Virus record (IMG/VR): IMGVR_UViG_3300042863_000708
Span: 1 to 50,429 of that record
DNA length: 50,429 nucleotides
Strand: one strand, 5' to 3'
Source of the DNA: a virus
Translations under genes and position numbers: made by a program
Notes under the pieces: generated by a model
The model's input: only the letters and a program-made list of their open reading frames with translations
Databases searched by the model: none
What the model was told of the DNA's origin: nothing
Shown: positions 5,364-31,859 of the stretch, piece by piece
Numbering within the stretch: the first letter of the stretch is position 1
How the letters are laid out: every line of letters starts with the position of its first letter

Positions 5364-8300
5364 TTGAATTACGTTCCGCTTCATGTTCATTCCCATTTTA
5401 GTCTAATGGATGGTGTATCAACTCCAGAGGAGTATGCATTTCGTGCAAAAACCCTAGAGATGCCTGCCATTGCAATTACAGACCATGGGGTGCTGTCTGG
5501 TCACAGACCTATGTATCGTGCTGCAAAAGAGCAGGGTATAAAGCCAATCCTTGGTATCGAAGGTTATATTACCGCTGATAGATTTGATAAACGAGATAAG
5601 AATGAAAGGGAAAACCCACTTGACCTTATCTATAATCATATTGTAATCCTTGCCAAGAATCAAATTGGTTTACAGAACTTGAACAAGCTGAACGAGATAG
5701 GCTGGACAGAGGGATTCTATAGGAAACCACGCATAGACTTTGAAGTTCTTGATAAGTATGGCGAAGGTCTTATAGTATCCACTGCCTGCATGTCTGGTCT
5801 CATCAATAAAGCTATTGAGTTAGACGAGTATGCAGTAGCAAAGCAACACATTAAATGGTTTAAAGATAGATTTGAAGATGATTTTTATGTAGAACTTATG
5901 CCACATAATGTTGCTGGTATGAATATAGAACTTTATAATCTTGCTCAAGAAGCAGGAGCAAAGTGCATAACTACTCCAGACTGTCACCATTGCACACCAG
6001 ATCAGAAGGTAGTGCAAGAGATGATGCTGGCTCTTAATACACATGCAAAGCTTCAAAAAGACGTTTCATATGAGAAGTCAACATCATACAAAGACATGAT
6101 GGAAAGACTTGACTATCTATATGGTGCAGACAGAATGATGAGCTTTAGATCATTTGATATCCACCTTCTTTCTTATGATGAAATGAAGAGTGCTATGGAT
6201 GCAGAGGGTGTCACAGATGAAAGCATCTATACCAATACCCTTGAGATTGCAGACAAGGTAGAAGAATATGAAATTAAAAGCAACCTAAACCTTCTACCAA
6301 TAAAGGTAGATCATCCTCAAAAAGAATTGCGTAGCCTAGTAATGGCTGGTCTAAAGCTTAGAGGCTTAGACAAAAAAGAAGAATACCTTGATCGTATCAA
6401 AGAAGAGTTAGAAGTTATTCAAGATAAAGACTTTGCTCCATACTTCCTTGTGGTTCACAATATGATTGCGTGGGCAAAGAGTCAGGGTATTCTCATTGGT
6501 CCAGGTCGTGGTTCTGCAGCAGGATCTCTTGTCTGCTATGCTCTTGAAATTACAGAGGTTGATCCAATTGAACACGGCCTACTGTTCTTCCGATTCATTA
6601 ACCCAGATAGAAATGACTTTCCAGATATTGACACAGACATTCAGGATTCACGGCGTGACGAGGTAAAAGAGTACCTTGAGAAGGAATATAAGCATGTCGC
6701 ATCTATTGCAACATTCTTGCAGTTTAAGGACAAGGGTGTAGTTCGTGACGTTTCTCGTATCCTTAACGTTCCTCTTCCAGATGTTAATAAAGTACTTAAG
6801 CTTGTTGATACATGGGAAGACTACTGTCGATCATCATCAACTAAGTGGTTCCGTGATAAGTACCCAGAGGTTGAAAAGTATGGCGAACAACTAAGAGGTC
6901 GAATTCGTGGAACAGGCATTCATGCTGCTGGAATCGTTACAGCCAAGGAACCAATTTTTAATTACGCTCCACTTGAAACTAGAATAAGCCCTTCCACTAA
7001 GGAGCGCATCCCTGTTGTTGGAATTGACATGGAAGAGGCAGCCGATATCGGTCTAATTAAAATTGATGCACTTGGTCTAAAGACACTAACAGTAATCAAT
7101 GATACGCTAAACAGTATCAAGTCTCGTTATGGACTTGATATAAATCTAAAAGAACTTGACATGAAGGATAAGCATGTTTATCAAATGCTTTCAGATGGTC
7201 ACACAAAGGGAGTCTTTCAATGTGAGGCAACGCCATATACAAATCTTATTGTTAAGATGGGTGTCAGAACATTTGAGGAGTTAGTAGCATCAAACGCACT
7301 GGTTAGGCCAGGTGCAATGAATACCATTGGTAAAGAGTATATGGCTCGCAAGCATGGAAAGAATACCATAGAATATATTCATCCACTAATGAATCAACAC
7401 CTTAAAGATACATATGGCTGCGTTCTTTATCAAGAGCAGGTCATGCAGGCTTGCACAACCCTTGGTGGAATGACAATGGTAGAAGCAGACAAGGTTCGAA
7501 AGATTATTGGAAAGAAAAAGGATGCAACAGAGTTTGATCAGTTCAAAGACAAGTTTGTCTCTAATGCATCAGCATATATAAGTCCATTCCAAGCACAAAA
7601 TCTATGGCATGACTTTGAGGCTCACGCAGGTTATTCGTTCAACAAGTCTCACGCTGTAGCCTATTCAATGCTGTCTTATTGGACAGCATGGCTAAAATTT
7701 TATTATCCTACAGAGTTTATGTTTGCAATTCTTAAGAATGAGAAGGATAAGGATGCTAGAACAGAGTATCTTATTGAGGCAAAGCGTATGAATATTAGCT
7801 TAAAGCTTCCTCACATTAATGAATCTGATATAGACTTTAAGATAGAAGGCAAAGGTATTAGGTTTGGTTTGTCAGCAATCAAGTGGATATCTGATGGAGT
7901 TGCTTCAAAGATTATGGCTAATAGGCCATTTAACTCCTACCAAGAAGTAAGAGATATTGCTTTTAAAAAGGGTAGCGGAATAAACTCAAGGGCAATAGAA
8001 GCTTTGGATGCAATTGGAGCACTAACCTTTCCAGATCATCCTCGAAATGAAGATACTGTTAGAGACAACCTCTACGAGTACTTAAACCTTCCAGAGTTCT
8101 CTATGAATATTCCCTCCCATTACTATGCATATATTGACAACACGGAAGACTATGATGAGTCCAAGAGTCATATTGTTATGGGAATGGCTAAAAAGATAAA
8201 GCGTGGCAAGGGTTGGTGTCGTGTAGAGTTTATGGACAAGACGGGTATGGTAGGAATTTTTGATGAAGAAGATAGCAAGATAGAAGTAGGAAAGACATAC

Positions 8301-8636
8301 ATAATTCTTTCAGCAAGTAATCGAATAGCAGATTTTCTACAGGTAGAAGATGCTGATAAAGTAAAGTCACCATTGACAAAGTTTTTAAACTACAAGACTT
8401 TGCCATATGGACAAAATGAGTATTTTGTGCTATCTTTTAACCCTAGAGTAACAAAAGCAGGAAAGAGAATGGCTCATATGGTTCTTGCAGATTATGATCG
8501 TAATCTAATTCCTGTCGTTGTCTTTCCGACTATGTTTGCTGAAGCTTACATGAAATGCGAACCAGGAAGTATTCAAAAGCTTTTAATGAACGAACTTAAA
8601 GATGGAACGATAACAGTAAAGGAGATAAGTAAATGA
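5364..8636 (+). CDS. dnaE: DNA polymerase III alpha subunit, DnaE-type
   Basis: A full-length 1090-residue family C replicative polymerase. The PHP domain starts at once (VPLHVHSHFSLMDG, then ITDHG and DCHHC), which fixes the TTG at 5364 as the start. The polymerase core has PGRGSAAGS near residue 380, the two catalytic aspartates in PDIDTDIQ (about 419-426), and the third in IKIDALGLKTL (about 566). A C-terminal OB-like region follows. The gene overlaps the MazG-like gene by four bases. Having its own replicase is a mark of larger actinophages. Confidence 0.96.
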   Translation: MNYVPLHVHSHFSLMDGVSTPEEYAFRAKTLEMPAIAITDHGVLSGHRPMYRAAKEQGIKPILGIEGYITADRFDKRDKNERENPLDLIYNHIVILAKNQIGLQNLNKLNEIGWTEGFYRKPRIDFEVLDKYGEGLIVSTACMSGLINKAIELDEYAVAKQHIKWFKDRFEDDFYVELMPHNVAGMNIELYNLAQEAGAKCITTPDCHHCTPDQKVVQEMMLALNTHAKLQKDVSYEKSTSYKDMMERLDYLYGADRMMSFRSFDIHLLSYDEMKSAMDAEGVTDESIYTNTLEIADKVEEYEIKSNLNLLPIKVDHPQKELRSLVMAGLKLRGLDKKEEYLDRIKEELEVIQDKDFAPYFLVVHNMIAWAKSQGILIGPGRGSAAGSLVCYALEITEVDPIEHGLLFFRFINPDRNDFPDIDTDIQDSRRDEVKEYLEKEYKHVASIATFLQFKDKGVVRDVSRILNVPLPDVNKVLKLVDTWEDYCRSSSTKWFRDKYPEVEKYGEQLRGRIRGTGIHAAGIVTAKEPIFNYAPLETRISPSTKERIPVVGIDMEEAADIGLIKIDALGLKTLTVINDTLNSIKSRYGLDINLKELDMKDKHVYQMLSDGHTKGVFQCEATPYTNLIVKMGVRTFEELVASNALVRPGAMNTIGKEYMARKHGKNTIEYIHPLMNQHLKDTYGCVLYQEQVMQACTTLGGMTMVEADKVRKIIGKKKDATEFDQFKDKFVSNASAYISPFQAQNLWHDFEAHAGYSFNKSHAVAYSMLSYWTAWLKFYYPTEFMFAILKNEKDKDARTEYLIEAKRMNISLKLPHINESDIDFKIEGKGIRFGLSAIKWISDGVASKIMANRPFNSYQEVRDIAFKKGSGINSRAIEALDAIGALTFPDHPRNEDTVRDNLYEYLNLPEFSMNIPSHYYAYIDNTEDYDESKSHIVMGMAKKIKRGKGWCRVEFMDKTGMVGIFDEEDSKIEVGKTYIILSASNRIADFLQVEDADKVKSPLTKFLNYKTLPYGQNEYFVLSFNPRVTKAGKRMAHMVLADYDRNLIPVVVFPTMFAEAYMKCEPGSIQKLLMNELKDGTITVKEISK

Positions 8637-15506: not shown

Positions 15507-16526
15507 ATGAAAGAATCACTTTGTTTTGATGACATCCTTTTGGTGCCACAACACAGCTCAGTAAAGTCAAGGCACGACGTAAGATTAACAATGTCAATTG
15601 GTTATGGGGCAAAAGAAATTAGTCTTTATACACCAGTAATTGCATCACCAATGGATACAGTCTGCGATGTAGAGATGTGTAAGGCTATGTCTGACAGGGG
15701 TGGATTGGGAATACTTCATAGGTATATGAGTTATGAAGAACAAGTAGCAAAGTCTCAAGACCTTATTGAAGACAAATATAATTTTGGAGTAGCCGTTGCA
15801 TCTAACAATGGATTTCTATCACAGGCAGACAGCTTATACAAGATAGGTGTAAGAATATTTTTAGTTGATACCGCTAATGGTCACAGTGACAATGCAATTA
15901 ATGCAGTTAAAGAACTTTCATTAGCCCTGCCAGATGCACATATTATGGCAGGCAATGTTGCTACTTACGACGGATTTAAAAGACTTGCAGAGGTTGGAGC
16001 AGACTCTATTCGTGTTGGAATAGGTGGTGGAAGCGTATGTACAACAAGGATAGTAAGTGGTCATGGAGTTCCTACTGCTCATTCAATATCTGAAGTAGCA
16101 TTGCAAAACGAATATCAGTGTTCAATTGTTGCTGATGGTGGAATTAGAAACAGTGGAGACATGGTAAAAGCTTTTGCTTTGGGAGCAGATGCAGTCATGC
16201 TGGGATCAATGCTTGCTGGAACAGACGAATCACCAGGAGAAGTATTTGAGTCAAATGGAGCAACTGTTAAGCACTTTAGGGGAATGGCCTCTGATAAAGC
16301 TCAAATTGATTTTATAGGAAAGTCTTCTGTTACAGAAGGTGTTTCTACAACGATTACATACAAGGGATCTGTCAATGCAATTATTGATCAGGTCAGGGGG
16401 GGCTTGGGTAGCGGGTGTTCTTATTCGGGGGTAGATAATCTATCATCCTTACATATACATTCAGAAGCTATTAAAGTTTCCCCATTAAGTGTAAATGAAT
16501 CAAAACCCCACGCTCTGGTGGTATAA
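15507..16526 (+). CDS. guaB: IMP dehydrogenase / GMP reductase family enzyme
   Basis: A 339-residue TIM-barrel enzyme without the CBS pair of host GuaB. The catalytic loop is GGGSVCTTR with Cys178, followed by [18 protein letters not shown] and [19 protein letters not shown] bind the nucleotide phosphate, and the C-terminal ESKPH resembles the IMP dehydrogenase tail more than GMP reductase. It would push purines toward (or from) guanine nucleotides during infection. It has its own AGGAG site seven bases after terL. Confidence 0.88.
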
Positions 16527-31128: not shown

Positions 31129-31153
31129 CCCCAGATTCCAGGGAAAAATGGGG
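31129..31153. terminator. Bidirectional terminator between convergent operons
   Basis: CCCCA (31129-31133) pairs with TGGGG (31149-31153). There is an A run on the left and a T run (31165-31172) on the right, so it can stop transcripts from both sides. The region 30963-31175 otherwise has no gene; it also holds a TTGACA-N17-TATAGA promoter-like pair (31076-31104) reading rightward, of unclear purpose. Confidence 0.6.
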
Positions 31154-31175: not shown

Positions 31176-31703
31176 TTACTTATATAGTATATCTATTGGA
31201 GCTTTACATGTAGGGGAATAGTTAGTAGCTGCTTGGATTGCTTTCTCTACCCTGGCTTTTGCGGGTAGATCTATAGATGTATATAAAGAACCATATGCAT
31301 ATGATGATCCACTACCTATAGATACTTCTTCATATTCTACACATTGGAAATCAGAGATGTCTATTTCATATACTCTACCCTTGACCCCTATAATAAACCC
31401 TGCATTATTATCATCATCTTCTGGAATCTTGATATCATTCTCTTTAAAGAATAATCTAAGAGCTGGTATGAATACCTTCAGCATATGTCTATCTATATTG
31501 TGAGTCTTGCCAACGGCGGGGTATTGAAAATTATATATAACAGCTTGACCTATACCACTATTACCACAATATCCTATAAGATAAGATCCTACATCAAATA
31601 TTTTAGGTTGGGTAGAAGAAACCAGGGTATGGGAATCAGAATGCCCTCTATCTCCACCCATATATACTTTACCATTATCTGATATAGCTACAATACATGT
31701 CAT
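31176..31703 (-). CDS. Proteasome beta / HslV-like Ntn threonine peptidase
   Basis: A 175-residue protein, close to the length of E. coli HslV. After Met removal it begins TCIVAISDNGKVYMGGDRG: Thr1 is the nucleophile, Asp17 lies in GGDRG and Lys33 in QPKIF, exactly the proteasome triad spacing. IGSGSSYAYGSLY corresponds to the active-site Ser-Gly loop and next helix, and KARVEKAIQAA to the following helix. The ATG at 31703 overlaps the stop of a small membrane-protein gene, and any longer start would bury Thr1. No HslU, ClpX or Mpa-like ATPase is encoded here, so it may use a host partner or act alone. Confidence 0.85.
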   Translation of the reverse strand: MTCIVAISDNGKVYMGGDRGHSDSHTLVSSTQPKIFDVGSYLIGYCGNSGIGQAVIYNFQYPAVGKTHNIDRHMLKVFIPALRLFFKENDIKIPEDDDNNAGFIIGVKGRVYEIDISDFQCVEYEEVSIGSGSSYAYGSLYTSIDLPAKARVEKAIQAATNYSPTCKAPIDILYK

Positions 31704-31804
31704 GAAAATATCCAGGAAAAAAATAGGATGGTCGTAATACCCAGGGTAAAGAGAAGAAAACATCCTCCTATAAACGTAGTAATAATATCATCACCCTTAT
31801 TCAT
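31700..31804 (-). CDS. 34-residue membrane protein coupled to the peptidase
   Basis: ATG 31804 lies behind GGGGAAG. The protein has a polar start (MNKGDDIITT) and one hydrophobic helix (FIGGCFLLFTLGITTILFF). Its stop overlaps the start of the peptidase gene (ATGA). It could anchor or gate the peptidase at the membrane; this is inference from coupling only. Confidence 0.6.
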   Translation of the reverse strand: MNKGDDIITTFIGGCFLLFTLGITTILFFSWIFS

Positions 31805-31830: not shown

Positions 31831-31859
31831 ATCATATCAGAAACCCGTGAATTTTTCAA
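31831..31859 (-). promoter_or_regulatory. Promoter TTGAAA-N17-TATGAT of the peptidase operon
   Basis: On the minus strand TTGAAA (31859-31854) and an extended TGATATGAT box (-10 at 31836-31831) are 17 bases apart. The -35 sits inside repeat copy A. Confidence 0.65.

Follow-up and report, generated by a model that had tools for sequence, protein, structure and literature searches.

A divergent proteasome-family peptidase encoded in an actinophage genome fragment

Introduction

A stretch of viral DNA of 50,429 nucleotides (IMG/VR record IMGVR_UViG_3300042863_000708, hereafter the window) almost certainly encodes a genuine proteasome-like peptidase. Its family is known from phages, and within that family this intact enzyme diverges somewhat. 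The peptidase is a divergent phage/bacterial group I homologue, nearest to AAH and neither PPH nor HslV. Phage-borne proteasome homologues of the PPH and AAH types were already described by Fuchs, Alva, and Lupas (Fuchs et al., 2021; PMC8665760), and AAH is distributed among alpha-proteobacteria, Actinobacteria, some phages, and Firmicutes (PMC8665760). The original prediction of a phage-encoded Ntn hydrolase of the proteasome/HslV type with an intact triad stands; the find is less unusual than suggested, because the phage protein family is already established. The window adds a divergent branch in an actinophage lineage; Fuchs et al. (2021; PMC8665760) found no AAH in actinophages. The overall reading considered here to be the probable one is that of a group I (AAH-nearest), BPH/HslV-like threonine protease, self-compartmentalizing, expressed from its own promoter unit, operating without an ATPase, and aiding infection in an accessory capacity. 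Proteasome homologues occur widely among phages, and this locus alone does not settle the function of the family. The features on which the following sections draw are these:

31176–31703, minus strand: group I (AAH-like) proteasome-family peptidase of 175 residues, identified by its triad, profile matches, structural model, and homologues
31700–31804, minus strand: open reading frame (ORF) of 34 residues with one predicted hydrophobic helix, a leader ORF or small membrane protein
31831–31859, minus strand: sigma-70-like promoter TTGAAA-N17-TATGAT with 10 of 12 consensus matches and an extended TG
31129–31143, minus strand: terminator-like hairpin CCCTGGAATCTGGGG followed by TTTTTTATAT, just past the peptidase stop codon
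20211–20384, plus strand: WhiB-family regulator, pointing to an actinobacterial host

Sequence and family membership of the peptidase

The coding sequence of the peptidase, without its stop codon, spans positions 31179–31703 on the minus strand, and its 175-residue product begins with MTCIVAISDNGKVYMGGDR. Once the initiator methionine is removed, Thr, Asp, and Lys occupy positions 1, 17, and 33, exactly as originally described, and the GSGSS active-site loop, which contains the G129-S-G motif, is found at residues 129–133. An acidic, pore-loop-like segment, NDIKIPEDDDNN, follows helix H2 and contains EDDD; its net acidity ranks sixth among 155 homologues. An in-frame ATG at 31763 allows an alternative reading of 195 residues, in which translation would start 20 codons earlier and a propeptide would be cleaved off. 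This ATG lies in an open frame and has an AGGAGG in front of it, but the AGGAGG abuts it with zero spacing, the M-T position is the start in all 15 aligned homologues, and propeptides are reported only in proteasome beta subunits and HslV (PMC8665760), so that this longer form is highly improbable.

A search for the proteasome family, which had been proposed as a check, yielded a score of 27.6 bits against Pfam Proteasome (PF00227), above the gathering score of 22.4. Furthermore, PHROG 1040 ("peptidase HslV family") matches the peptidase over its full length (E = 3.5e-21), and HslV and BPH structures rank first in an alignment-profile search. The PHROG E-value, the Pfam score, and the invariance of D17 and K33 indicate that the match is not due to chance. 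Phage records, IMG/VR, and bacterial genomes supplied the homologues. Approximately 190 sequenced phages carry relatives, as do hundreds of viral contigs, and most of the homologues found are 170–199 residues long. D17, K33, G43, and G129 are invariant among 141 non-redundant homologues, a set for which Thr1 was itself a selection rule; the four sequences dropped by that rule (L202, L174, L175, and L177) carry Ser in place of Thr at residue 1. Ser1 is known for some BPH. In 15 aligned phage homologues chosen regardless of residue 1, T1, D17, and K33 are all invariant. Homologues devoid of the triad, named at the outset as grounds for abandoning the prediction, are thus not what was found: Asp17 and Lys33 are kept, as is Thr1 apart from the few cases of Ser1. 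PF00227 has a single match in the record, so that a separate alpha subunit is absent from it, and the peptidase remains below threshold for the bacterial 20S proteasome beta model TIGR03690 (25.5 vs. 191.9).

The window peptidase shares approximately 30–36% identity with its relatives. The signature SFRMGQ (residues ~47–52) is absent and is replaced by NSGIGQ, so the substrate site may differ. In the tree, which was built without AAH reference sequences, the peptidase sits beside the AAH-like clade on a long branch (1.35 substitutions per site) with a placement support of 0.53.

Predicted fold and relation to known proteasome homologues

The AlphaFold2 monomer model of the peptidase (pLDDT 94, pTM 0.89) consists of β sheets sandwiched between helices 49–58/70–88 and 133–142/148–162. 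Structure prediction therefore yields the Ntn alpha-beta-beta-alpha fold, the absence of which would have spoken against the prediction. With this model as query, Foldseek ranks BPH first (E ~1e-11, TM ~0.8), followed by HslV and archaeal proteasome beta subunits, and a protein of Gordonia phage Daredevil is also a fold match.

The peptidase resembles AAH in its length class, lack of propeptide, T1/D17/K33, helices H1 and H2, and compact C-terminus, and its relatives in Azospirillum, Frankia, Streptomyces, Paenibacillus (Firmicutes), and phages reproduce the AAH distribution. It differs from these relatives in its acidic loop and its position beside the main clade. Based on distribution, anatomy, and similarity, the peptidase would be best called AAH-like rather than a proven AAH, given the level of identity, the missing SFRMGQ, and the long, weakly supported branch. 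PPH, too, belongs to group I, shares the fold family, and is carried by phages; however, PPH comprises approximately 140 residues and lacks helix H2 (PMC8665760), whereas the window peptidase has 175 residues and, in the model, helix H2 at 70–88, which excludes the PPH type as defined in that study. BPH (PDB 5OVS, 5OVT, and 5OVU) is the best fold match and shares the catalytic residues, the acidic pore loop, and an apparent lack of an unfoldase, although identity in the structural alignment is ~16–21% and the description of BPH came from bacteria rather than phages. The BPH pore loop carries a five-residue acidic run, to which EDDD of the peptidase is similar; BPH has no known unfoldase and showed no activity towards standard substrates (PMC5777263). 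HslV (ClpQ) shares the fold, the triad, and the GSG loop. A true HslV orthologue, acquired from the host and working with host HslU, would account for the identical catalytic residues and for the presence of HslV among the top profile and fold matches. By contrast, the peptidase scores 18.2 and 19.0 bits against NCBIfam HslV models with cut-offs of 157.75 and 137, no HslU lies nearby, and the tree groups it with AAH relatives instead of HslV. On this sequence evidence, HslV orthology appears already largely refuted by score, and we give it almost no credence.

Gene unit and the preceding membrane ORF

The promoter originally proposed ahead of the two ORFs, TTGAAA-N17-TATGAT, is present (31859–31831, minus strand). 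Taken by itself, one such match lacks significance, as 10 promoter-type matches were found vs. 6.5 expected in shuffles. In the sibling contig L003, the boxes are kept as TTGAAA-N17-TATAAT while the spacer and leader have diverged, which supports the promoter. The start codon in L003 lies no more than approximately seven bases from the –10 box, and a leaderless transcript may be possible there. The hairpin with its T run downstream of the peptidase gene had escaped the original prediction. Together with the 34-residue ORF, the peptidase gene probably forms one transcription unit that has its own promoter and stops at this terminator, and the compact promoter-ORF-ORF-terminator arrangement is convenient for expression and testing. 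The stop codon of the 34-residue ORF overlaps the peptidase ATG as predicted (…TCATGA at the end, an ATGA overlap), and the peptidase ATG has no Shine-Dalgarno sequence, which together suggest that translation of the peptidase is coupled to that of the 34-residue ORF.

A module of approximately 57 bases recurs in intergenic positions between 31 and 40 kb at seven sites (31864, 31921, 33178, 35939, 37131, 38205, and 39488). It consists of (C)TGGGG, an AT-rich stretch, TCTTCGTAA, and a GC-rich palindrome, e.g., GGGGCGCCCC, and probably serves the phage as a regulatory or terminator cassette.

The 34-residue ORF has a best 19-residue Kyte-Doolittle mean of 2.2. It is probably translated, since in L003 it is nearly unchanged (one substitution in 105 bases) where the leader has diverged; it may be a partner of the peptidase, a leader for translational coupling, or a small membrane protein unrelated to it. 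When 50,697 phage records were searched with this query of only 34 residues, and thus of limited power, nothing matched, and the exact degenerate pattern was found in two sibling contigs only (~95% or more nucleotide identity). A short hydrophobic ORF precedes the peptidase gene in 4 of 138 non-redundant homologous loci. The dedicated pairing of protease and membrane protein put forward originally is not borne out by this distribution, the ORF being confined to three near-identical contigs, and a conserved membrane-protein partner was rejected for the same reason. In line with the original prediction, a protease complex acting at the cell envelope was nonetheless considered, in which the 34-residue helix would tether the peptidase to the membrane. 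One promoter serving both overlapping ORFs, the single strongly hydrophobic helix, and its conservation in L003 are in accordance with tethering; however, relatives of the ORF are limited to siblings, few homologous loci have a comparable ORF in front, and the overlap alone is enough for translational coupling, with contact unnecessary. Such a complex is quite unlikely, and the further idea that the helix recruits a self-compartmentalizing threonine protease to the actinobacterial membrane, degrading envelope or superinfection-related proteins, is more doubtful still. Apart from adjacency, nothing backs a membrane coupling.

Proposed mechanism and alternatives

In the proposed mechanism, methionine aminopeptidase would expose Thr1, and the subunits, by analogy with relatives, may close into a single or double ring whose Thr1 residues point inward. 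The Thr1-Asp17-Lys33 mechanism would then hydrolyze small or unfolded polypeptides, with an acidic pore loop, and not a dedicated ATPase, probably gating entry. During infection, the peptidase would most likely play an accessory and non-structural part, clearing or trimming peptides as well as proteins that are damaged or belong to the host. We found no report in the literature in which proteolysis or ring assembly was shown for any AAH.

HslV and proteasomes normally partner AAA+ rings. The original prediction noted that no ATPase is encoded nearby, and this holds: no HslU/ClpX-type ATPase is found in the window, and no AAA_2 unfoldase in the window or in the three sibling contigs, all of these being fragments. 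As the window is itself fragmentary, a partner ATPase could lie outside. Alternatively, the peptidase might dock on a host AAA+ ring (the proteasomal Mpa/ARC, or ClpX) and redirect it, as would suit an enzyme of a type that normally works with such rings in a phage where no AAA_2 unfoldase was found. However, no co-occurring AAA+ was found for these families (Fuchs et al., 2021; PMC8665760), BPH is apparently partnerless (PMC5777263), and HslU would be an atypical partner in actinobacteria, for which HslV is not marked (Table 1 of PMC8665760); docking on a host ring is thus unlikely. An ATP-independent, BPH-like chamber is favored over an HslU-like partnership because the acidic segment resembles the BPH pore loop. 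The peptidase might also be a Thr-dependent Ntn enzyme other than a general protease, i.e., a specific amidase or a connectase-like peptide ligase, possibly monomeric. Connectase demonstrates that the fold can turn into a specific ligase (PMC8665760), and residues 47–51 differ from those of the rest of the family; by contrast, the model is compact and lacks the connectase insertion, and the nearest solved structures are ring proteases. A specific amidase or ligase is accordingly a minor prospect beside the ATPase-independent protease.

Genomic neighborhoods of the homologues

Within the window, the neighbors of the peptidase gene are small genes of no known family, from which an infection role cannot be read. 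The main recurrent identifiable neighbors of homologues are terminase, portal, prohead protease/capsid, HNH, and integrase genes of (pro)phages, and thymidylate synthase and PhoH occur nearby in a few phages. A portal homologue lies near the AAH-type gene at 33 loci, representing 18 AAH lineages. Assignment of function from a conserved neighbor was rejected, as none is explanatory and the terminase of the window lies ~16 kb from the peptidase gene. Among provirus and phage loci of IMG/VR (L005 and L018–L097), the AAH-type gene is, in many proviruses, near terminase, portal, prohead protease, or capsid genes.

A general nif linkage of the bacterial relatives was also rejected, there being no nif/fix homologues in the flanks (≤5 kb) of 80 genome loci. 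On plasmid pSfreGR64b of Sinorhizobium fredii GR64 (L254), an AAH-type gene at 8001–8546 is flanked by nifQ/rpoN on one side and by an iscA-nifUS-homocitrate synthase-nifW-fixABC block on the other. Its position there suggests that, in some bacteria, the gene could take part in nitrogen fixation. AAH-type copies are also present on other rhizobial plasmids.

Virus, host, and related actinophage genes

To judge from its WhiB gene and its Streptomyces-phage-like terminase and DNA polymerase, the window is an actinophage fragment, probably of a larger genome. Identity to Streptomyces phages with genomes of ~130 kb is 55% for the terminase and 53% for the DnaE polymerase, and the WhiB gene is present in all four contigs (the window and three siblings). 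The GC content is ~38%, and the host is thus likely a low-GC actinobacterium. Actinobacteria, the phylum of the likely hosts, often possess their own proteasomes. WhiB genes are characteristic of both actinobacteria and the phages that infect them (PMC10611076).

Related "protease" genes have been deposited from Arthrobacter phages Hum25 and Pitbull and Microbacterium phage Pumpernickel, and a relative in the Actinomycetia lake phage DSL-LC01 was labeled HslV (PMC10611076). The actinophage setting is therefore under-reported rather than new. These genes resemble that of the window in being actinophage-borne, in their identical catalytic residues, and in their similar size (175–229 residues), the sequences of Hum25, Pumpernickel, and DSL-LC01 having been read and Pitbull being known from its tblastn match alone. 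They differ in belonging to another sub-branch, and no overlapping 34-residue membrane ORF was noted for them. Elsewhere in the window, a protein of 339 residues (15507–16526, plus strand) appears IMP dehydrogenase-like by eye and matches PHROG 9582 ("dehydrogenase"), and may represent an auxiliary gene of purine metabolism.
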